Position numbers and translations under genes: made by a program | The notes under the pieces: model-generated | Told to the model about the DNA's origin: nothing | Databases searched by the model: none | Seen by the model: the letters and a program-made list of their open reading frames with translations, nothing else | Virus record (IMG/VR): IMGVR_UViG_3300010885_005330 | Span: 1 to 35,925 of that record | DNA length: 35,925 nucleotides | Strand: one strand, 5' to 3' | DNA from: a virus | Part shown: piece by piece, positions 3,539 to 35,111 of the stretch | Position numbering within the stretch: the first letter of the stretch is position 1 | Layout of the letters: every line of letters begins with the position of its first letter

Positions 3539-3994
3539 ATGGACACCTTACTTAATATCCTGAAGAACGTAGCGCCTGGCATCGCTACCTTAGTGGCTGG
3601 CCCTGCTGGTGGGATGGTCGTCTCTGCACTGGCTGCTAAATTTGGGGTGACTGATACGGTAGAAGAAGTTGCCAAGGCTATTGCCGGTGATCCTGCGGCT
3701 GCTCAAAAGATGGCTGAGATGGACTTAGAACGGTTCCGTGTAGAGCAGGCTGCTATTACGTCCCGCTGGGAAGCTGACATGGGTTCAGACTCATGGTTGT
3801 CCAAGAACATCCGTCCGATGGCGCTGATCGCTATCTTTGTGGCGTTCTTTCTATTCACCATGATGTCAGCGTTTGGTTACAACGCGCAAGAGAGCTACGT
3901 GCAATTGCTCGGCCAATGGGGTCAGATTATTTTTCTGGCTTACTTTGGCGGCCGCACCGTTGAAAAACTTGCTGACATGAAGGCCAAAAAATGA
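3539..3994 (+). CDS. Holin, GTA-type three-transmembrane family (151 aa)
   Basis: An N-terminal hydrophobic Ala/Gly segment (about 12-35) is followed by a charged linker. The family hallmark SWLSKNIRPMALIAIFVAFF comes at about 84-103, with a final hydrophobic helix near 121-138. This order matches the 'holin of 3TMs, for gene-transfer release' family found beside phage endolysins. An upstream in-frame start at 3473 exists, but it lies inside the preceding gene. The ATG at 3539 has a nearby AAGGA (3529-3533) and gives the normal family length. It would form the inner-membrane lesion that releases the endolysin. The stop overlaps the endolysin start (ATGA), which couples the pair. Confidence 0.85.
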   Translation: MDTLLNILKNVAPGIATLVAGPAGGMVVSALAAKFGVTDTVEEVAKAIAGDPAAAQKMAEMDLERFRVEQAAITSRWEADMGSDSWLSKNIRPMALIAIFVAFFLFTMMSAFGYNAQESYVQLLGQWGQIIFLAYFGGRTVEKLADMKAKK

Positions 3995-5365: not shown

Positions 5366-5994
5366 GTATTTTTCTCCTGAATATCGTAAAACCAATCATC
5401 GCCTGCCGACCATTTGCGTGTGCCGTCAACTGTCCATAACCTTTGCGCGGCTTGGAAATTTGGAAACTTTGTCTCAGCAGGGATCAGGCTCTGGTCGTAC
5501 CACAGGCATCTGTTGTTGGGCTGGCACGCGAACTGGCCGTTGTCTAACGCAATCCAGTTGAACGACTTGTGTTCTTCTGCCTGCTCGGTAAAGCCTGTAT
5601 CTAACGACAGTTCATCAGCACAAAAGTCCACGGTAAACAAGTAGCGCCCAAAGTGCCACTCACGGTCTTTGCCCAAGAACTTCACGCCCAAGTTGCGTAG
5701 ACCAATCTTTTCCAAGATGGTAAACCTGTAACCCATGCAGTCCCACAGTTGCAGGGTGTCCACTGGCAGATTACCAGCGTCTGCGTGCCACACATACGCA
5801 TGGATGGGCAGCTTGTCGTACAGCGCTCCATAGGCAGGCAACAGTGACTCAATGCGGAACACTTGACCACGCAAGGCTTTCAGACTGACCCAGATGGCTG
5901 GCTCTAACTCGCCGTGACCTTTGTGGTCGTTGTACAGAAACTCGCGCTTAACAAAGCACTTCATGGGCGGCAGCGATGCAATGATGTAGCTCAT
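5362..5994 (-). CDS. Conserved phage protein of unknown function (210 aa)
   Basis: This is a soluble, aromatic-rich protein that begins MSYIIASLPPMKCFVKREFL and contains GELEPAIWVSLKALRG and a Trp-rich C-terminal half. The beginning looks like a conserved phage protein I have seen among early genes, but I know of no assigned activity. No Walker, nuclease or helix-turn-helix motif is seen. It overlaps both neighbours by ATGA. It is the largest protein of this operon after the helicase and a reasonable candidate for structure prediction. Confidence 0.8.
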   Translation of the reverse strand: MSYIIASLPPMKCFVKREFLYNDHKGHGELEPAIWVSLKALRGQVFRIESLLPAYGALYDKLPIHAYVWHADAGNLPVDTLQLWDCMGYRFTILEKIGLRNLGVKFLGKDREWHFGRYLFTVDFCADELSLDTGFTEQAEEHKSFNWIALDNGQFACQPNNRCLWYDQSLIPAETKFPNFQAAQRLWTVDGTRKWSAGDDWFYDIQEKNT

Positions 5995-6185
5995 TCCGTC
6001 ACCGTCGCAATGTACGCCTTCAAGCGTTTGATCTGCGCTTTGTTGAACGCCACCATTGACGAGGCGTATTCCACGCCAGTCTCGGCTTTGAGTAGCTCAT
6101 GCTCGGCGATCACAAGTTGCGTTGCTGCCGATTCCAGCGGCGTAGGCGGCTTAAATAACTTCTTAATTTCGGTGTAGATGATCAT
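5991..6185 (-). CDS. Hypothetical helical protein (64 aa)
   Basis: ATGA overlaps at both ends support expression within the operon. The sequence after residue 14 is predicted helical (AATQLVIAEHELLKAETGVE), with heptad-like Ala/Leu spacing and a basic patch near residues 50-55. No family is recognised. It may be a small dimeric or protein-binding peptide. Confidence 0.65.
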   Translation of the reverse strand: MIIYTEIKKLFKPPTPLESAATQLVIAEHELLKAETGVEYASSMVAFNKAQIKRLKAYIATVTE

Positions 6186-11963: not shown

Positions 11964-14252
11964 TTGCAATTCCTCGATTTTATATCATCATTAGCCCCAG
12001 AGGGTGAGACTGCTTTGATTGTCAGGCAAAAGCCACAACTAAAAGACGGCATGATGCAGTTCCACGCTGATGGCGCGATCAAGGCGACATGGCCTGCCAG
12101 CCTGCCGACCAAGGGCGTTAAGGCTGGGCAATCATGGTACGGCAACACCGCCTCGTACATCATTGAGCGCTTCAAAGACGGGCATGTCAGCGCGAGTTCA
12201 TCTAACTGCGAGTACTGCCTAGTGTTGGTTTTAGACGACATTGGCAGCAAGTCCAAGACGCCGCCGGTCGAGCCGACATGGAAGATGGAGACGTCCCCCG
12301 ATAACTTTCAATGGGGCTACGCTTTCAACGAGCAGCCGACTAAGGGCGAGTTCAGCGCCGCTATCAAGGCTATGGCCGAGGCTGGCTACACAGACCCTGG
12401 CGCGATCAACGCCGTTCGTAACTTCCGTTTGCCTGGTAGCGTTAACCTAAAGCCTGGCCGCGATAACTTTGCTGCTGTGCTGTCTGAGTTCAACCCTGAC
12501 CGTGACTTCACACTGGCCGAGTTGTGCGCTGCCATGAACGTGACGCCAGCGCCTGCCGACAGTATGACTCTCAAACCCATCAGGCTGTCGGACGATGGCT
12601 CTGACGATGTCATGACGTGGCTGTCCAGCGAAGGGCTGCTGTTGTCCAAGCCTAACCAAGAAGGCTGGGCCGGTGTCCTGTGCCCTAACTCTGCTGAGCA
12701 TACCGATGGCAACCCAGAAGGCCGGTACATGCCAGCCAACCGCGCCTACTGCTGCCTGCATGGTCACTGCATCGACTTCGGCTCGTCCCTGTTCTTGCAG
12801 TGGGTCGCCGACAATGGCGGCCCCAAGCATACGCCTGGGCTGCGTGAAGAACTGTTCACGGCCGTGATGAGTGACGCGCTTGCCAAGCTGACGCCTAACG
12901 ATATGTTCACCGACGCGGCTGCCGAGCGTGTCGCCGAGGTTGAGCGTAAAGAACTTGGCCGGATCGAAAAAGCTGATTGGTACGACCGCTTCGCGTACAT
13001 CCAAGACGACGAATCGTATTTTGATATGCAAGACCGCCGCGAGGTGTCACGCCAGACGTTTAACGCCTTGTTCCGGCATATCAGTTGCAAGTCAATCCAC
13101 ACCGGCCGCAAGGTCGAGGCGTCTATCTGCTTTGATGAGAACCGGCAAGCCAAAGGCGCTAAGGCGCTGGTCGGTATCACTTACGCGGCCGGTGAGACTG
13201 TCCTAGTCGCCCGTGATGGCGACATCTACGGCAACCGCTGGCGCGACGCGCGGCCGGTGGGCGTGGCCGGTGATGTGACCCCTTGGCTGGATCACTGCCG
13301 TGCGCTTGTCCCCGATGCGCGTGAGTTGGCGCATATCTTGGACGTGATGGCGTTTAAGGTGCAGCACCCTGAGATTAAAGTCAATCACGCTATCTTGCAT
13401 GGCGGCGATCAAGGGTCAGGCAAAGACACCATGTGGGCTCCGTTCATTTGGGCGGTGTGTGGCCCCCATCAAAAGAACCGTGGCCTGCTGGACAACGACA
13501 CTATGAGCAGCCAGTTCGGCTACGCCTTGGAGTCGGAAATACTGATCTTGAATGAGTTGAAAGAGCCGGACGCCAAGGAGCGCCGAGCGCTGGCTAACAA
13601 ACTCAAACCGATCATCGCCGCGCCGCCTGAGATGCTGTCAGTTAACCGTAAGGGTCTGCACCCTTATCAGATGGCTAACAGAATGTTCGTCTTGGCCTTT
13701 TCTAATGACAGCGTTCCCATTAGCCTTGATTCTCAAGACCGCCGCTGGTTCTGCGTCTGGTCACATGCGCCGCGTATGGCCCCAGAGGCTGCTGCTAAGC
13801 TGTGGGCGTGGTACACGTCCGGCGGGTTTGCTGCCGTGGCTGCGTGGATGGGATCGCGTGACGTGAGCGCGTTTAATCCTGGTGCGACTCCCATGATGAC
13901 AGAATTTAAAATGAACTTGGTCGAGCAGGGCATGAGTACGGCCGAATCGTTTCTGGTGGAACTGATGCGCCACAAACTAGGCGAGTTTGCCAAGGGCGTG
14001 GTCGGATCGCCCTTTCACGCGCTTTGCGACCGTGTCGCTGGCGCTGCCCCATCTGGCGTTAAAGTACCACAGGCGGCGCTGCTGCACGCGTTCAAAGAGG
14101 CTGGATGGGTCGATCTTGGCCGCGTGGCGTCTGCTGACTTCCAGAGCAAGAAGAATTTGTTCTGTGCCCCTGACATGGTCGGCACACCTAAATCTACGCT
14201 GCGGCGCATGGTCGAAGACCTACCGGCCGCAGGGCTTGTCAGGGTGAAATAA
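11964..14252 (+). CDS. Primase-helicase with zinc finger and D5/NrS-1-like ATPase (762 aa)
   Basis: The start is TTG 11964 with an ideal AAGGAG (11952-11957) six bases before it. Residues about 1-190 look like a RepB/archaeo-eukaryotic-type primase region with INAVRNFRLPGSVNLKPG near 145-162. A zinc-binding segment follows (C240, H246, then CCLHGHC at 263-269). The C-terminal helicase has Walker A GGDQGSGKD (480-488, K487), an ILNELKEPDA Walker B-like segment and a QDRRWFCVWS arginine/sensor segment. This resembles the DUF5906/NrS-1 polymerase-like helicases and the poxvirus D5 group. It should unwind DNA and make primers for the family A polymerase. Whether the N-terminal part is catalytically complete I cannot tell by eye. 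Confidence 0.85.
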   Translation: MQFLDFISSLAPEGETALIVRQKPQLKDGMMQFHADGAIKATWPASLPTKGVKAGQSWYGNTASYIIERFKDGHVSASSSNCEYCLVLVLDDIGSKSKTPPVEPTWKMETSPDNFQWGYAFNEQPTKGEFSAAIKAMAEAGYTDPGAINAVRNFRLPGSVNLKPGRDNFAAVLSEFNPDRDFTLAELCAAMNVTPAPADSMTLKPIRLSDDGSDDVMTWLSSEGLLLSKPNQEGWAGVLCPNSAEHTDGNPEGRYMPANRAYCCLHGHCIDFGSSLFLQWVADNGGPKHTPGLREELFTAVMSDALAKLTPNDMFTDAAAERVAEVERKELGRIEKADWYDRFAYIQDDESYFDMQDRREVSRQTFNALFRHISCKSIHTGRKVEASICFDENRQAKGAKALVGITYAAGETVLVARDGDIYGNRWRDARPVGVAGDVTPWLDHCRALVPDARELAHILDVMAFKVQHPEIKVNHAILHGGDQGSGKDTMWAPFIWAVCGPHQKNRGLLDNDTMSSQFGYALESEILILNELKEPDAKERRALANKLKPIIAAPPEMLSVNRKGLHPYQMANRMFVLAFSNDSVPISLDSQDRRWFCVWSHAPRMAPEAAAKLWAWYTSGGFAAVAAWMGSRDVSAFNPGATPMMTEFKMNLVEQGMSTAESFLVELMRHKLGEFAKGVVGSPFHALCDRVAGAAPSGVKVPQAALLHAFKEAGWVDLGRVASADFQSKKNLFCAPDMVGTPKSTLRRMVEDLPAAGLVRVK

Positions 14253-17009: not shown

Positions 17010-17264
17010 TTACCCTGCAAAGACTTCCGCGCGGTTGTTGACGCGGTAATGATGCTGTCCGATCTGCACATAGGTTGCGCCCTTCTTGTCGCGCTGCTCG
17101 ACTGAGGCGATGCACGGCCACGGATGCGCGGCGGCGCGTTCTAATATGTTGGTCGTTTGGTTGCGCGACAAAAAGCCGTAACGTTGTAAAAGGGAGAGTT
17201 CAGCGTCGAACGAGGCGAGGGTCAGATGCTGCACGGGTTGGGAGATGAACAGGCGTTTTGTCAT
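17010..17264 (-). CDS. Hypothetical protein at the head of the leftward operon (84 aa)
   Basis: This is the first leftward gene next to the repeat-rich control region. A weak GGAAA precedes ATG 17264. The protein has a helical first half (LASFDAELSLLQRYGFLSRN) and a beta-rich second half (ATYVQIGQHHYRVNNRAEVF), a layout compatible with a small winged-helix-like fold. I cannot show a DNA-binding motif. Its position makes it a candidate regulator; the call as a gene is moderate. Confidence 0.6.
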   Translation of the reverse strand: MTKRLFISQPVQHLTLASFDAELSLLQRYGFLSRNQTTNILERAAAHPWPCIASVEQRDKKGATYVQIGQHHYRVNNRAEVFAG

Positions 17265-17322: not shown

Positions 17323-17469
17323 GCTGTATTTTGTCTGGGTCAGTTGGGTTATGGTTTGGGTTATGGTTTGGCGGGGATGACCCATCGCGGAAGCCTTATA
17401 GCGCCTCACTATTTACCGCTTATGGGTCATTTGGGTTATGGGTTGTATTTTTAGATAAAAGTATTAAAA

Positions 17470-17489
17470 CACTGTATATACATACAGTG
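17470..17489. promoter_or_regulatory. LexA/SOS-box-like operator
   Basis: CACTGTATATACATACAGTG is a 20-bp dyad with perfect 8-base arms and contains CTG-N10-CAG with the alternating TA centre of the gammaproteobacterial/betaproteobacterial LexA consensus. It lies in the control region among the iterons. A TATATA inside it, preceded by TG, could be the -10 of a rightward promoter, which would place the operator over the promoter as in host SOS genes. Confidence 0.65.
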
Positions 17490-17638
17490 GTGTAAAATTA
17501 CACTATTACAAGTCAGCAACTTCGTTGGGTCAGCCTAAATGACCCATAAACCCATGACCGCGCTATCGGCCACGTTTTATGTATGGGTCATTTGGGTCAC
17601 TGGTTTGAGCTTGACCCATATGACCCATGATGTATGTG

Positions 17639-17683
17639 TCTGCTCCTTAATCGATAGCAAGCTCTGCTCCTTAATCGATAGCA
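17639..17683. repeat. Tandem 21-bp direct repeat, 24-bp period
   Basis: Two identical 21-base units (17639-17659 and 17663-17683) are separated by three bases. Each contains CCTTAATCGATAGC with an ATCGAT core. Spacing of 24 bp places them on nearly the same helical face, as expected for cooperative protein binding. Confidence 0.8.
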
Positions 17684-17791
17684 GCATGTTGTAAGCGGTC
17701 AACTTGTTTGGGTCAACCTAAACGACCCATGAATCCATTCGTTGATGCTTATATAAGCAAGTACCAGGCTAATCGCAAAAACAAAAAAGTC

Positions 17792-17812
17792 GGGGCAGGG
17801 GGGTGGGCAGGG
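17792..17812 (+). other. G-quadruplex motif
   Basis: Four G-runs of 4, 6, 3 and 3 with loops of 2, 1 and 2 bases satisfy the strict G3+N1-7 rule. It lies about 110 bases before the small terminase start, between the repeat cluster and an A/T tract (17852-17883), all non-coding. Confidence 0.6.
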
Positions 17813-17850
17813 CCGACGACAGGGCCAGCCGTTGCCGTAGGGGCTGCACG

Positions 17851-17888
17851 GAAAATTTTTTCTAGCAAAATTTTTTTAATATATGATC
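17851..17888 (+). promoter_or_regulatory. A/T tract and possible late promoter before terminase
   Basis: A decamer AAAATTTTTT occurs twice in phase, followed by TAATATATGAT. TATGAT (17882-17887) or TAATAT (17877-17882) could be a -10, but I see no good -35. The tract is likely bent, and a phage- or host-factor-dependent late promoter is possible. The region 17265-17919 holds no gene I can support. Confidence 0.35.
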
Positions 17889-17919
17889 CAAGCACACGCA
17901 TACCGTGGCTGGAGAATCC

Positions 17920-18363
17920 ATGTTTTACTCGCTTCCATACGAAGCGCGCAAAGTCGAAGCGACTGAGGCGCGCCTCAACGCCATATACGACGCCGCCAAA
18001 CTTGGCCTCAAAGGCGACACCCTAGCCTTGGCCGCAGGGATGCTGCCGCAAGAGTACCGGCAACTGTGCCAGCTAGACCCAATCGCCGAAGTGGCAGCGC
18101 TAAAAGGCCGCGCCGATGGCGAGATCACGGCGTCTAGGCAACTGCACGCGGCTGCTGCCGAAGGCGACGCCAAGGCCAGCTTGGCTATCTTGCAGAACGT
18201 TCACGGTTGGGTGGCTAAGCAAGCCATCACCATCGACGTCGATCAGCGCATCAGCATCACCGCCGCGCTGGCGCAGGCCGAACAACGCGTTATGGAAGTG
18301 ATTGAAAATGATGTACGTGATCGTGTTCTTATGCCTAGTCTTCTTGATAAACAAGTGGTTTGA
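17920..18363 (+). CDS. Terminase small subunit-like protein (147 aa)
   Basis: TGGAGA lies four bases before ATG 17920; a GTG at 17905 is possible but puts the ribosome site inside the gene. The N-terminal half is helical, with a helix-turn-helix-like stretch around residues 25-60 (GDTLALAAGMLPQEYRQLCQ). The C-terminal part holds a beta segment (ITIDVDQRISI) and a helix. It directly precedes the large terminase with a 4-base gap. The small subunit recognises the packaging site, which may lie in or near this gene. Identification rests on layout and fold pattern, not on a catalytic motif. Confidence 0.78.
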   Translation: MFYSLPYEARKVEATEARLNAIYDAAKLGLKGDTLALAAGMLPQEYRQLCQLDPIAEVAALKGRADGEITASRQLHAAAAEGDAKASLAILQNVHGWVAKQAITIDVDQRISITAALAQAEQRVMEVIENDVRDRVLMPSLLDKQVV

Positions 18364-18367
18364 CTAG

Positions 18368-19894
18368 ATGCAGTCAACAATCTACTCAGCCGAAGATGAA
18401 CAAGCGCTAATGGCCCGTCTGTGGAGTCCACAGATCAAGGACAACCCGTTTGCGTTTGTGATGTTGACGTTTCCTTGGGGCGTCAAGGGCACACCGCTGG
18501 AAAACTTCAGTGGGCCGCGCAAGTGGCAGCGCGAGGTGCTGCAAAGCATAACGGCGCACGTCCAACAAAACAACGGCAAAGTTGACTTCAACACGCTACG
18601 GCAAGCGGTGTCATCCGGTCGAGGGATCGGCAAGTCGGCGCTGGTGTCTTGGCTAGTGATCTGGATGCTGTCCACACGGATCGGCTCGACGACCATCGTG
18701 TCGGCTAACTCAGAGTCACAACTGCGGTCGGTGACATGGGCTGAGATAACTAAGTGGCTGGCGATGGGGCTGAACAGCCATTGGTTCGAAGTCAGCGCAA
18801 CGCGGCTAATACCAGCAAAGTGGCTGACGGAGCTAGTCGAGCGCGACCTGAGAAAAGGCACACGCTACTGGGGCGTCGAGGGGCGACTATGGTCAGCAGA
18901 GAACCCAGACGCGTTCGCGGGGGTACACAACTACGACGGCGTATTGGTCATATTTGACGAAGCGTCAGGTATCGACGACACCATCTGGGCGGTGACGGCT
19001 GGCTTTTTTACTGAAAACACACCCAATCGGTTCTGGCTGGCGTTCTCTAATCCGCGTCGCAACACAGGCTACTTCTACGAAACATTCCACTCTAAGCGCG
19101 ACTTTTGGGAAACCAAGGTAGTGGACGCCCGAACGGTCGAGGGGACAGACAAACAGGTCTATCAACAGATCATCGACGAATACGGGCCAGACTCCAGCCA
19201 AGCGCACGTCGAGGTGTATGGTCAGTTCCCCAACGCAGGCGACGATCAGTTTATTGGGATCATGCTGGTTGAAGACGCCATGCAGCGGGAGAAGTACAAA
19301 GACCAATCCGCGCCGATCGTGATCGGTGTAGACCCAGCACGGTTCGGGGCTGACGCGACAGTCATAGCTATCAGGCAGGGGCGGGACATAGTCAAGATCA
19401 TCCGGCATCGGGGCGACGACACCATGACAGTGGTCGGCTACGTAATCGAAGCTATTGAGGAGTTTAAGCCGACGCTAGTGGTCATCGACGAAGGTGGGCT
19501 AGGGGCTGGTATTGTCGATCGTTTAAAAGAGCAGCGGTACAAGGTCAAGGGCGTAAACTTTGGCAATAAGTCCAAAAACCCTATCATGTACGGTAATATG
19601 AGGGCGCAGATGTGGGGCGACATGCGGGAATGGCTCAAGACGGCTAGTATTCCAAACGATCGGTTCTTGAAAACTGACCTTATTTCGCCTATGATGAAGC
19701 CAGACTCGCGCGGGACGATCTTTTTAGAATCCAAAAAAGACATGAAGTCACGCGGTTTAGCGTCGCCGGACGCTGCTGACGCCATTGCGGTGACGTTTGC
19801 ATTTCCAGTGGCACACAGAGAGTACAATAATCGGGCCGTGCGTCGGAGCTACGCTGGCTCAGCAGAAACTGCAACTTCTTGGATGGGGTCATAG
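18368..19894 (+). CDS. Terminase large subunit, ATPase and nuclease (508 aa)
   Basis: The N-terminal ATPase has Walker A SSGRGIGKSA with K89, Walker B VLVIFDEASG with D197/E198, and a coupling segment LAFSNPRRNTG. The RNase H-like nuclease shows VIGVDPARFGADAT with D322, LVVIDEGGLGAGI with D374, and SPDAADA with D468/D471. All parts needed for translocation and cutting are present. The length is normal for P22/headful-type subunits. The stop TAG is followed immediately by the next ATG. Confidence 0.96.
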   Translation: MQSTIYSAEDEQALMARLWSPQIKDNPFAFVMLTFPWGVKGTPLENFSGPRKWQREVLQSITAHVQQNNGKVDFNTLRQAVSSGRGIGKSALVSWLVIWMLSTRIGSTTIVSANSESQLRSVTWAEITKWLAMGLNSHWFEVSATRLIPAKWLTELVERDLRKGTRYWGVEGRLWSAENPDAFAGVHNYDGVLVIFDEASGIDDTIWAVTAGFFTENTPNRFWLAFSNPRRNTGYFYETFHSKRDFWETKVVDARTVEGTDKQVYQQIIDEYGPDSSQAHVEVYGQFPNAGDDQFIGIMLVEDAMQREKYKDQSAPIVIGVDPARFGADATVIAIRQGRDIVKIIRHRGDDTMTVVGYVIEAIEEFKPTLVVIDEGGLGAGIVDRLKEQRYKVKGVNFGNKSKNPIMYGNMRAQMWGDMREWLKTASIPNDRFLKTDLISPMMKPDSRGTIFLESKKDMKSRGLASPDAADAIAVTFAFPVAHREYNNRAVRRSYAGSAETATSWMGS

Positions 19895-30349: not shown

Positions 30350-31066
30350 ATGGCTACGTACACCGCTGGCGATCAAATCAACCGAGCATTGCGATTGCTG
30401 GGCGTACTGGCTGAAGGTGAGACACCTTCGGCAGACATGTCAAATGATGCGTTGGTCGCGCTCAATCAAATGATTGATTCGTGGAACACTGAGCGCTTGT
30501 CAGTGTTCAATACGCAAGACCAAGTTTTTACATGGCCTGCTGGTCAGATTACGCGCACGCTTGGCCCAACAGGTGATTTTGTAGGCAACCGTCCAATTCT
30601 GTTGGACGACGCTACCTACTACCGTGACCCAGGCACAAACGTGTCGTTCGGCATTAAATTTATCAATCAGCAGCAATATAGTGGTATTGCGGTTAAGACT
30701 GTGACATCCACGTACCCACAGGTCATGTGGGTCAACATGGAGTACCCTAACATCACGATGACCGTGTACCCCAAGCCTACACGGGACTTGGAGTGGCATC
30801 TTGTTTCAGTGGATGAGCTAACGCAGCCAGCTACGCTGGCAACGCAAATACTGTTTCCACCAGGCTATCTGAGGGCGTTCAGCTACAACTTAGCGATGGA
30901 GATCGCGCCAGAGTTCGGTGTCGAGCCAAGCCCTCAAGTGCAGCGTATTGCTATGACTAGCAAGCGTAACCTTAAACGCATCAACAACCCTGACGATGTC
31001 ATGTCGATGCCTTACGCAATTGTCGCCACACGCCAGCGCTTTAACATCTACGCCGGTAACTATTAA
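30350..31066 (+). CDS. Tail accessory factor, P22 gp4-like (238 aa)
   Basis: The N-terminal AGDQINRALRLLGVLAEGET, followed by ALVALNQMIDSWNTERLSVF and QDQVFTWPAGQITRTLG, is the conserved signature of P22 gp4-type head-completion proteins. It is helical, longer than P22 gp4 (166), and ends in RFNIYAGNY. Copies would bind the portal ring and close the DNA channel. The stop TAA shares its last A with the next ATG. Confidence 0.9.
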   Translation: MATYTAGDQINRALRLLGVLAEGETPSADMSNDALVALNQMIDSWNTERLSVFNTQDQVFTWPAGQITRTLGPTGDFVGNRPILLDDATYYRDPGTNVSFGIKFINQQQYSGIAVKTVTSTYPQVMWVNMEYPNITMTVYPKPTRDLEWHLVSVDELTQPATLATQILFPPGYLRAFSYNLAMEIAPEFGVEPSPQVQRIAMTSKRNLKRINNPDDVMSMPYAIVATRQRFNIYAGNY

Positions 31067-32721
31067 TGAAGACGCCTATTCTTGGGTCGTCCTACGTAGC
31101 GCGTAGCGTTAACGCTGCCGACGCGCGGATGGTCAATCTTTTTCCAGAGGTTGTGCCTGAAGGCGGTAAAGAAGCTGCGTTCTTAAATCGCGCGCCAGGG
31201 CTGCGTTTTTTGGCAAGCATGGGTGATGGCCCTGTACGCGGGTTGTGGCAGTTTGGTGGATATGGCTATGCTGTATCTGGCGAAACGTTGTATAAAATTG
31301 ACAGCCTCTGGAATGTGACCGCGCTTGGTACAGTGGCCGGATCATCCGGCCCTGTCAGCATGGTAGACAACGGCACGCAGCTATTCATTGCGTGTAACGG
31401 CCCCAGTTTCATCTACAACAGCCTGACGTTAGAATTTAAGCAGATTACTGATCCTGACTTCCCTGGCGCGGTTACGGTAGGCTACATCGACGGTTATTTC
31501 GTGTTTAACGAGCCTAACAGCCAGCGTTTGTGGATCACTCAACTGCTTGACGGCACGTCCATAGACCCTCTGGACTTTGCAAGCGCTGAAGGCTCTCCTG
31601 ACGGCTTGGTGTCGATTATTGTCGATCACCGCGAGATATGGCTGTTTGGAACCAATTCGGTTGAGGTCTGGTACGACGCTGGCACATCGCCGTTCCCGTT
31701 AGCGCCCGTTCAAGGCGCGTTCAATGAGGTCGGGTGCAGCGCAGCGTTCTCAGTAGCCAAGCTAGACAATGGCATTTTCTGGCTGGGCGCTGATGCACGC
31801 GGTAAGGGCATCGTCTACCGTGCCAATGGGTACACCGCCCAGCGGGTGTCTACGCACGCTGTAGAGTGGCAAATCCAGCAGTACGCAAACATCTCAGACG
31901 CTATTGCGTACACATACCAGCAAGACGGCCACCCGTTTTACGTGCTGATCTTTCCATCAGCCAATACGACTTGGGTGTTCGACGTTGCTACTTCCTTGTG
32001 GCATGAACGCGCGGCGTTTATCAATGGCTCGTTCACCCGTCACCGTTCCAACTGCCAGATGGCGTATAACGGTCAAATTGTTGTGGGCGACCATGAACTT
32101 GGAAACATCTACGCATACGATCTAGATGTGTTCACCGACAACGGCGCTGTACAGAAATGGCTTCGGTCATGGAGAGCGCTGCCAACCGGCATGAACGATC
32201 TAAAGCGTACAGCCCAGCATTCGCTTCAACTTGACGTTGAAACAGGTGCTATTAGATCAAATGTAACTACGCCAATTGTAATTATCGATATTTCAAATCC
32301 AAATGACGATTTGTTAACCGAAGGCGGTGATTTTCTTGCGTGGGAATATATTGACCCAACAATCAGTGAAGTGTTGCTAACTGAAAGCGGTGATAATCTA
32401 ATACAGGAAGATGGAGGTCGACTTGTTTTGGTTTACAACACATCAGTTGGCGGTAAGTTACTGATTGAAAATGGCCTTGCAACAGCGACCGCTATTAACC
32501 CTCAAGTTATGCTGCGCTGGTCTGACGACGGCGGCCATACGTGGAGCAACGAGCATTGGCGATCTATGGGCCTGACAGGTGAGTGGGGGCGACGTGTCAT
32601 CTGGCGTCGGCTGGGCATGACGGTAAAACTGCGTGACCGTGTATATGAAGTTTCTGGCACAGATCAGACCAAAATAGCGATCATGGGCGCTGAACTTAAC
32701 GTAAGCCCAACCAATGCCTAA
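31066..32721 (+). CDS. Packaged-DNA stabilisation protein, P22 gp10-like, with an insert (551 aa)
   Basis: The protein opens with VARSVNAADARMVNLFPEVV and FLNRAPGLRFLASMGDGPVR, and includes NEVGCSAAFSVAKLDNGIFW and HSLQLDVETG before QVMLRWSDDGGHTWSNEHW. These mark the gp10 family that bridges gp4 and the needle or tailspikes. Between about residues 393 and 480 it carries an insert with repeated LLTE-G-D-L motifs. The DNA of this stretch (about 32240-32490) is more A/T-rich than its surroundings, so it may be a later addition. Confidence 0.9.
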   Translation: MKTPILGSSYVARSVNAADARMVNLFPEVVPEGGKEAAFLNRAPGLRFLASMGDGPVRGLWQFGGYGYAVSGETLYKIDSLWNVTALGTVAGSSGPVSMVDNGTQLFIACNGPSFIYNSLTLEFKQITDPDFPGAVTVGYIDGYFVFNEPNSQRLWITQLLDGTSIDPLDFASAEGSPDGLVSIIVDHREIWLFGTNSVEVWYDAGTSPFPLAPVQGAFNEVGCSAAFSVAKLDNGIFWLGADARGKGIVYRANGYTAQRVSTHAVEWQIQQYANISDAIAYTYQQDGHPFYVLIFPSANTTWVFDVATSLWHERAAFINGSFTRHRSNCQMAYNGQIVVGDHELGNIYAYDLDVFTDNGAVQKWLRSWRALPTGMNDLKRTAQHSLQLDVETGAIRSNVTTPIVIIDISNPNDDLLTEGGDFLAWEYIDPTISEVLLTESGDNLIQEDGGRLVLVYNTSVGGKLLIENGLATATAINPQVMLRWSDDGGHTWSNEHWRSMGLTGEWGRRVIWRRLGMTVKLRDRVYEVSGTDQTKIAIMGAELNVSPTNA

Positions 32722-33388: not shown

Positions 33389-33924
33389 TCACAGTAACCT
33401 ACGGCAAAGGCTTCGGGCTGTTAGCAGAAACAGCAAAAGTTGCATTCCGCGAAAAAATCATGGTTGTACAAGACGGTATGCAAGCCCTGATTAATAGCGG
33501 CGCAATGCGGTCAACGCTTGAAGACTGCACGCTGAAACATTATTTTTCACCCAAAGATGAAAAATACGGCTGCTGCACCTACGCGCGGGAAATGATGATT
33601 CCCAAAGGAACGCTTATCATCGGCAAGATTCACCGCCATCAGCATCTGAACTTTATTGCCAAAGGTAAAGTCATTGTGTTCACAGAGTTCGGTCAAAAGC
33701 ACTTAGAAGGCCCATGTACTTTTGTATCTGAGGTAGGGTTAAAACGCGCGGTCTATGCTGAAGAAGATACACTATGGACAACCGTACACATGACGCAGTT
33801 CCAATCGGAAGCAGAGTTAGATAAAATCGAGCAAGAAGTCATTTCTCCCACATACGCTGAGATGGGTCTGATTGCTTCTGTTAATGATCTGCCTAAATTA
33901 ACGGCACAAGGGGAAAAATTATGA
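33385..33924 (+). CDS. Cupin-like phage protein (179 aa)
   Basis: The central part, KGTLIIGKIHRHQHLNFIAK, has H83, H85 and H87, which could bind metal. It continues with a second beta block (FVSEVGLKRAVYAEEDTLWT) as in double-stranded beta-helix (cupin) folds. The protein is often found beside tail genes. It is coupled on both sides by ATGA. The substrate or structural role is unknown. Confidence 0.82.
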   Translation: MITVTYGKGFGLLAETAKVAFREKIMVVQDGMQALINSGAMRSTLEDCTLKHYFSPKDEKYGCCTYAREMMIPKGTLIIGKIHRHQHLNFIAKGKVIVFTEFGQKHLEGPCTFVSEVGLKRAVYAEEDTLWTTVHMTQFQSEAELDKIEQEVISPTYAEMGLIASVNDLPKLTAQGEKL

Positions 33925-35111
33925 CATGGGGATTTGTAGCCATCGCGGGGGCCACGCTTGTTGGCGGCGCAATAGCTTCTAGCGGCGCTCAAAGCGCTGC
34001 GGAAACTCAAGCTAACGCCGCTGCACAAGCAGGCACAACAAGTCTTGAAGGCTTGCAGTTGCAATTAGCAGCCGACAAAGAGAACGTCGATAAGCAAATG
34101 GCGGCGCAAAAAGCGGCGCTAGATCAAACGCTGGCGGCGCAAAAAACGGCGGCTGATACCGGAAATGCGGTAGCTCAAAACATGCTGACCCAGCAGTTAG
34201 CAGCGCAGCAATCCGCGCTTGACCAAACGCTTGGCTTGCAACGTGAGTTGTATCAGAAACAAGTTGAAAATCTTAGCTCGTTTAAAGACGCGGGTGAGGC
34301 TGGGCAGGCGCGGTTAATGGATTTGCTTGGCTTGAGTGGTAACAAAGACGCGCCAGGCTACGGGTCAGCAACAACTACGTTTAAAGTTGAAGGGTTTGAC
34401 CCTAACACACTGCTTGACAGCTTTAATACGCAGCAGATGGAGCAAGACCCAGGCTACGCGTTTCGATTGTCTGAAGGTCAGAAAGCTATTGACCGATCAG
34501 CGGCTGCTAGAGGCGGTTTGCAATCTGGCGCTGCGCTGAAGGCTGCTGCTGAGTACGGCCAGAACATGGGTTCGCAAGAGTACGGCAACGCGTACAACCG
34601 ATTCATGACAACGCAAGCTGCACAAGCCCAAAATTACGGCAACGCTTTTAATCGCTTTCAAACTGAACGCGCTAATCAATTGGCTCCTTTGCAGGCTTTG
34701 CAGGCTGTCGGTCAGGCTTCAGCGGCTCAACAAGGGGTTGCTGCGGGAAATTTGTCGCAAGGGGCTTCGCAAGCTATTCAAAACTACGGCGCTGGTACTT
34801 CAGCCGCTTATGGTACGGCAGGCGCAGCGCAGGGTCAAACCGCAGCAAATTTAGGCGCAGGGTCTTCGGCGGCTTACGGTAGCTACGGTGCGGGGACGGC
34901 TAACATCTACGGCGCATCAAACCAAGCGCGTCAAAGCGCATATGGCACAAACACCGCTAACCAGATTGGTGCAATTACAGGCGCTGGAAACGCTATGGCA
35001 GCCGGTCAAGTCGGCGCGTCTAACGCGTATACAAATGCTATCGGCCAAGCTGGAAGTTTGTACGGTATGTACAACCAGAATCAGTTGCTGCAAAAATATC
35101 TCACGCGATAG
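33921..35111 (+). CDS. DNA ejection protein, P22 gp7-like (396 aa)
   Basis: It opens with a Gly/Ala hydrophobic helix (VAIAGATLVGGAIASSGAQS at 6-25). An Ala/Gln coiled coil with repeated AAQKAALDQTLAAQK units follows at about 30-115. The conserved RLSEGQKAIDRSAAARGGLQ comes near 181-200, and the end is Ala/Gly/Asn/Tyr-rich with AYGNAFNRF-like repeats. This is the architecture of phage DNA transfer proteins of the gp7 type. It probably leaves the virion first, helping the DNA cross the envelope. The next gene starts nine bases after the stop. Confidence 0.85.
   Translation: MTWGFVAIAGATLVGGAIASSGAQSAAETQANAAAQAGTTSLEGLQLQLAADKENVDKQMAAQKAALDQTLAAQKTAADTGNAVAQNMLTQQLAAQQSALDQTLGLQRELYQKQVENLSSFKDAGEAGQARLMDLLGLSGNKDAPGYGSATTTFKVEGFDPNTLLDSFNTQQMEQDPGYAFRLSEGQKAIDRSAAARGGLQSGAALKAAAEYGQNMGSQEYGNAYNRFMTTQAAQAQNYGNAFNRFQTERANQLAPLQALQAVGQASAAQQGVAAGNLSQGASQAIQNYGAGTSAAYGTAGAAQGQTAANLGAGSSAAYGSYGAGTANIYGASNQARQSAYGTNTANQIGAITGAGNAMAAGQVGASNAYTNAIGQAGSLYGMYNQNQLLQKYLTR

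Follow-up and report, generated by a model that had tools for sequence, protein, structure and literature searches.

A positionally conserved iteron array that covaries with the wing of a primase-helicase is a probable replication origin in uncultured podovirus-type phages

The IMG/VR record IMGVR_UViG_3300010885_005330, analysed here over its full 35,925 nt and referred to as the window, carries a 123-bp terminal repeat and represents a complete circular contig of a podovirus-type, uncultured virus of bacteria. Its gene set includes a P22-like portal, TerL, a family A DNA polymerase, a DUF2800 nuclease, an SNF2-type helicase and a 762-aa primase-helicase. A repeat-filled region lies between an 84-aa ORF on the minus strand (17010–17264) and a putative TerS gene on the plus strand (17905–18363, with a possible start at 17920), the latter followed by TerL (18368–19894, plus strand; phrog_2, E = 8.8e-43), which served as a positional anchor; the repeats thus sit between divergent genes, as an earlier note on this DNA had described. 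The primase-helicase gene (11964–14252, plus strand) ends at 14252, ~3 kb before the repeats begin at 17336, and several small minus-strand ORFs occupy the interval. No Rep_1/Rep_3-type initiator was found among the ten window proteins scanned, a subset of its ORFs. Just upstream of terS, a G-rich block followed by an A/T stretch (17789–17880) has similar counterparts in the related loci L008, L012, L029, L034 and L076 and is possibly a packaging or termination element.

The repeat region (17336–17738) is an array of the unit TGACCCAAA in both orientations, comprising 13 exact TGGGTYA copies and additional degenerate ones, which confirms the bidirectional cluster of about 14 GGGTYA cores reported from inspection. 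The window contains 31 TGGGTYA against an expectation of 6.05 (s.d. 2.46), a number that none of 100 shuffles reached, and 13 of these fall within the 380 bp from 17336 to 17715, nine on the plus and four on the minus strand. By comparison, the densest 400-bp cluster in 300 first-order Markov genomes held three copies, and no more than three appeared in any of 2000 resamplings of the local sequence. A motif-free search likewise returned TGACCCA, with 10 copies, as the densest 7-mer cluster of the window, compared with 3–5 in 20 Markov genomes.

The array is organized around an AT-rich gap (17440–17520), a proposed DNA-unwinding element that contains a palindrome at 17470–17489 and whose AT content reaches 72–73% in the 60-bp windows starting at 17430 and 17460. 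To its left lie three plus-strand iterons (TGGGTCA at 17336–17342, TGGGTTA at 17345–17351 and TGGGTTA at 17357–17363), a lone reverse TGGGTCA on the minus strand (17378–17384) and, at the edge of the gap, a plus-strand tandem pair starting at 17423 and 17432 (17423–17438). To its right, inverted double pairs (17583–17628; starts at 17584 and 17593 on the plus strand, 17612 and 17621 on the minus strand) form the dyad with 17-bp arms that had been noted before (17583–17599 and 17612–17628, 94% complementary). The tandem copies at 17336/17345, 17423/17432, 17584/17593 and 17612/17621 share a 9-bp spacing, a feature that, like the AT-rich gap, was absent from the earlier note. That note also described two ~40-bp copies framing the cluster; two plus-strand 39-bp copies with 85% identity do exist, but one lies mid-cluster (17517–17555, containing iterons 17526–17532 on the plus and 17540–17546 on the minus strand) and the other at the right end (17700–17738, containing the plus-strand iteron 17709–17715). 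A perfect 21-bp direct repeat, TCTGCTCCTTAATCGATAGCA, occurs at 17639–17683 with 24-bp spacing, between the array and terS; L076 carries a near copy, whereas repeats of GTAAGTGAGTGCTCAC occupy this place in L008 and L012.

An Rfam scan of the region for an RNA element returned no match at E values up to 1, and a strong single-strand fold (z = −7.2) is no evidence for a structural RNA, because the iterons are inverted. GC skew, which had been suggested as a check, neither supported nor located an origin, its detrended extremes falling at 3951 and 31095.

To compare the array across relatives, we scanned IMG/VR with the primase-helicase, which yielded 80 related loci, and again with a 54%-identical relative as query, which yielded more; two further scans enlarged the set, so that ~160 related virus sequences were compared in all. 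Most loci whose contigs reach terS carry a dense short repeat just upstream of it, and the candidate-origin reading survives this comparison. Loss of the repeats from close relatives was half of what the earlier note had held would speak against an origin, and that half fails because the repeats are conserved in position. The place of the array is conserved whereas its unit sequence varies, including TGACCCAAA (class A, the window), TTGTCCACA (class B), ATGACTAC, TGACAATTT, TGTAAACAT, TTGCCAA and others. The 9-bp spacing is common to class A and class B arrays, and in 65 class A or B loci an AT-rich 50-bp segment lies at a median relative position of 0.33 of the array. The window's unit, TGACCCAAA, is not a DnaA-box-like 9-mer of the TTATCCACA type; only the class B units presumably resemble the DnaA box. 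In L019 and L020, sixteen overlapping copies of a AGGCAGGC-type tandem repeat lie upstream of terS besides the class B units.

The primase-helicase comprises a RepB′-like AEP primase region, an SF3 helicase (DUF5906; Pfam PF19263, E = 6.7e-13) and a predicted C-terminal winged helix. An AlphaFold2 model of residues 640–762 (mean pLDDT 78.5) adopts a winged helix with helices at 684–694 and 703–713 and a β-hairpin wing formed by strands 716–723 and 726–734. The proposed origin-binding domain (residues 659–751) is thus encoded at 13938–14216 and the predicted wing (residues 716–734) at 14109–14165, both on the plus strand. Structural comparison of the full model matched the NrS-1 CTR (6k9c, Z = 19.5, aligned over 405–735), the SaPI5 primase-helicase (7ola/7om0, Z = 15.8) and the PriRep1-dsDNA complex (7pds, Z = 11.3), and the N-terminal region matched AEP folds (S-2L PrimPol, Z = 13.9; RepB′, Z = 11.8); NrS-1 was also matched in sequence over the helicase (hmmsearch, E = 5.7e-9). 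With the C-terminal domain alone, Foldseek returned no match at E ≤ 0.001 and VIA-align only general winged-helix matches (best Z = 6.4). The P4 α origin-binding domain is absent from both lists, which carries no weight against it.

The sequence of the array covaries with this winged helix. In an alignment of 81 primase-helicases, with 75 loci in classes A and B, columns 718, 721, 722, 724, 727, 732 and 740 discriminate the 45 class A loci from the 30 class B loci without any overlap, the next best column reaching 0.14, and no class-separating column was found in polA, TerS or TerL. Given the hairpin strand positions in the AlphaFold2 model, the separating residues up to 732 fall within the wing; residue 740 lies just past it, and the neighbouring helix 703–713 is nearly constant among relatives. 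In a partial Mantel analysis of 101 loci corrected for primase residues 1–600, for which window sizes, anchors and motif measure were chosen after inspection of the data, the correlation peaked at 0.61 for residues 711–730 and was 0.60 for 721–740, compared with at most 0.21 in primase windows not touching 711–740, 0.08 in TerS and 0.10 in TerL, and with a maximum of 0.17 when motif labels were permuted within clades. By single column, 722 (0.71) and 727 (0.62) ranked highest.

The covariation persists through independent switches of array class. On a tree of residues 1–580 we counted at least six switches on supported branches, with wing and array agreeing in 6/6 independent pairs; six loci had been left unclassified by the first count, of which L043 and L064, which show no array, were labelled from wing residues before this tree test, and L029, L040, L072 and L078 were labelled after that count. 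One of these, L072, combines class A wing residues with a TGACCCA cluster at its contig end. Some pairs are nearly identical as far as residue 690 and diverge sharply from there on: L008 and L012, the arrays of which are different, show 14 differences in the 689 residues preceding position 691 and another 14 in the 72 that follow. A rule based on wing residues recovered the array class in 38/40 (A), 48/54 (B), 13/13 (D), 6/6 (E) and 2/2 (F) loci, counts that include the loci from which the rule was derived. Among later loci sharing no 50-mer with the first set, the rule covers seven, of which five agree (one B, two D, two E) and two disagree: L234 and L235 carry class-A-like wing residues and were predicted as A, and neither has a TGACCCA array, although the script tally counted one of them as agreeing, solely on account of counts that were all zero. 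In the 59 later, more diverse loci taken alone, the Mantel analysis ranked residues 501–520 first (0.33) and placed the wing outside the top seven windows, while column 722 ranked second. The wing of the C-terminal domain changing in step with the repeat sequence would expose a natural origin-recognition code.

The L029 array (5554–6110) is chimeric, with class A units giving way to class B units; the wing of this phage is of class A, and the arrangement has the appearance of an ongoing switch.

The earlier note had left the binder of the array open between the primase-helicase, the 84-residue protein and some other factor, and the covariation with the winged helix, and not with TerS or TerL, strongly favours the first. 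The 84-residue protein is an unlikely binder, as tblastn found no match to it among the 80 loci of the first scan, one of which has a 99%-identical primase. Covariation could also arise if another factor, either a small protein encoded between the primase and terS genes or a host protein, bound the array and the wing followed only through block recombination. The switches do exchange a block that extends from the primase C-terminus through the array and ends just before terS, so that linkage contributes to the covariation. In addition, one intervening ORF family is strongly biased between classes (39/44 A versus 2/32 B), and a few genes within the swapped block, belonging to some of the intervening families, have class-separating columns of their own (6/65 in one family, for example). 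However, none of the intervening ORF families occurs in every locus, the one with the strongest bias is missing from the window, several are about equally common in A and B without a separating column, and the signal is restricted to the wing rather than spread across the linked primase C-terminus. The lack of a universal family, the families without association and the narrow signal together speak against pure hitchhiking, and we regard a different binder as unlikely. Counting against the primase-helicase as binder, phage DSL-LC05 (L084; TerL 68% identical) carries an irregular TGGGTCA cluster upstream of terS (33598–33958) without a homologous primase-helicase.

The array could alternatively act mainly as an operator for the divergent promoters flanking it, with the primase-helicase or a regulator as the bound protein, as its location between divergent transcription units and its many bidirectional sites would allow. 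Promoter-like sites, however, occur at chance level (one found versus 1.3 expected, with a terminator scan also near chance), and at least ten sites around an AT-rich gap fit helicase loading better than simple repression, making an operator as the main function quite improbable, while a second role of this kind would be compatible with an origin. That the array is instead a pac or cosB-like packaging site, recognized by the TerS protein of the adjoining gene, is very unlikely despite the immediate proximity of terS and terL, as neither protein tracks the array class and a distinct G-rich block, with similar counterparts in the relatives compared, separates the array from terS.

Taking these observations together, we consider it highly probable, from sequence comparison and a predicted fold, that the array is the replication origin and that the phage primase-helicase is its initiator, binding the array. 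In this mechanism, the iterons would be contacted by the C-terminal winged helix, the wing hairpin (716–734) would determine which unit is recognized, and the neighbouring helix 703–713 would stay nearly constant. Bound copies of the primase-helicase would then form SF3 helicase rings at the AT-rich gap that separates the two iteron sets. The helicase would melt this gap to fire the origin, and the primase joined to it would make the primers that the phage DNA polymerase extends.

This organization is reminiscent of several characterized systems. In PICI/SaPI islands, the origin is described as two iteron sets flanking an AT-rich region (PMC6092414), a layout shared by the window with its gap at 17440–17520, and the Pri-Rep proteins are likewise SF3-helicase primase-helicases (PF19263, with the SaPI5 and PriRep1 structures matching our model) that occur in several allelic variants; the covariation supports a sequence-specific Rep–ori recognition of this type for the phage array. 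In contrast to the islands, the window phage has its own P22-like portal, terminase and structural genes and is a complete genome rather than a satellite, and its array is ~3 kb from the primase-helicase gene, whereas the island origin lies directly 3′ of the initiator gene. The P4 α protein, the C-terminal winged helix of which binds origin repeats (summarized in PMC4234260), similarly joins a primase, an SF3 helicase and a C-terminal winged helix (predicted in the phage protein) in one chain, but its primase is of the Toprim type and that of the phage is AEP/RepB′-like. The NrS-1 primase-polymerase is the best structural match for the helicase and tail, although the phage primase region is closer to RepB′ and S-2L PrimPol; the account of the NrS-1 Tail presents it as a novel fold required for hexamer assembly and, in the part bearing on it, reports no origin-binding role (PMC7102993).

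Covariation of an initiator with its repeats also has precedents. The DNA-binding domain of PLE RepA changes together with its iterons and the two are exchanged as a module, their cognate specificity having been established experimentally (PMC8263062), but RepA is a RepA_N initiator without helicase or primase and its semi-palindromic repeats are ~30 bp. In geminiviruses, iteron position is conserved, iteron sequences are diverse and Rep is cognate to them (PMC12548392), in the different setting of rolling-circle replication of ssDNA by an unrelated protein. The phage system appears to work like PICI, P4 α and PLE, yet belongs fully to none of them because it is a complete phage, its putative origin lies away from the initiator gene and its primase is AEP-like.

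The origin of an uncultured phage, and what binds it, are hardly ever known, and here sequence alone points to both. We tentatively extend this reading, with somewhat less than even confidence, to a large group of uncultured podovirus-type phages. These would use island-type origins that are recognized through the wing, instead of the recognition helix, of the winged helix attached to the primase-helicase, and would repeatedly have exchanged origin–initiator specificity modules. The origin layout reported for satellites would then extend to complete phages, and the C-terminal domain of DUF5906/NrS-1-like primase-helicases would gain a suggested function; an equivalent origin-reading role may fall to the Tail of NrS-1-like enzymes. 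The comparison also provides a residue-to-repeat table that is testable with short DNA probes, and prompts one to ask which selection lies behind the repeated switching of origins; such switching perhaps serves to avoid satellites, rival phages or origin-cutting nucleases.

Among more distant phages, the densest repeats of L147 and L148 fall in annotated coding regions and L149 has a weak cluster only. In the distant phage MW202496.1 (L150), a CGTAACAG-type array at 30909–31250 holds nearly all copies of its motif in the genome and has an AT-rich stretch inside. Two distant relatives also carry genes annotated as DnaA-type helix-turn-helix proteins (L083, 31423–31719; L150, 28052–28519).
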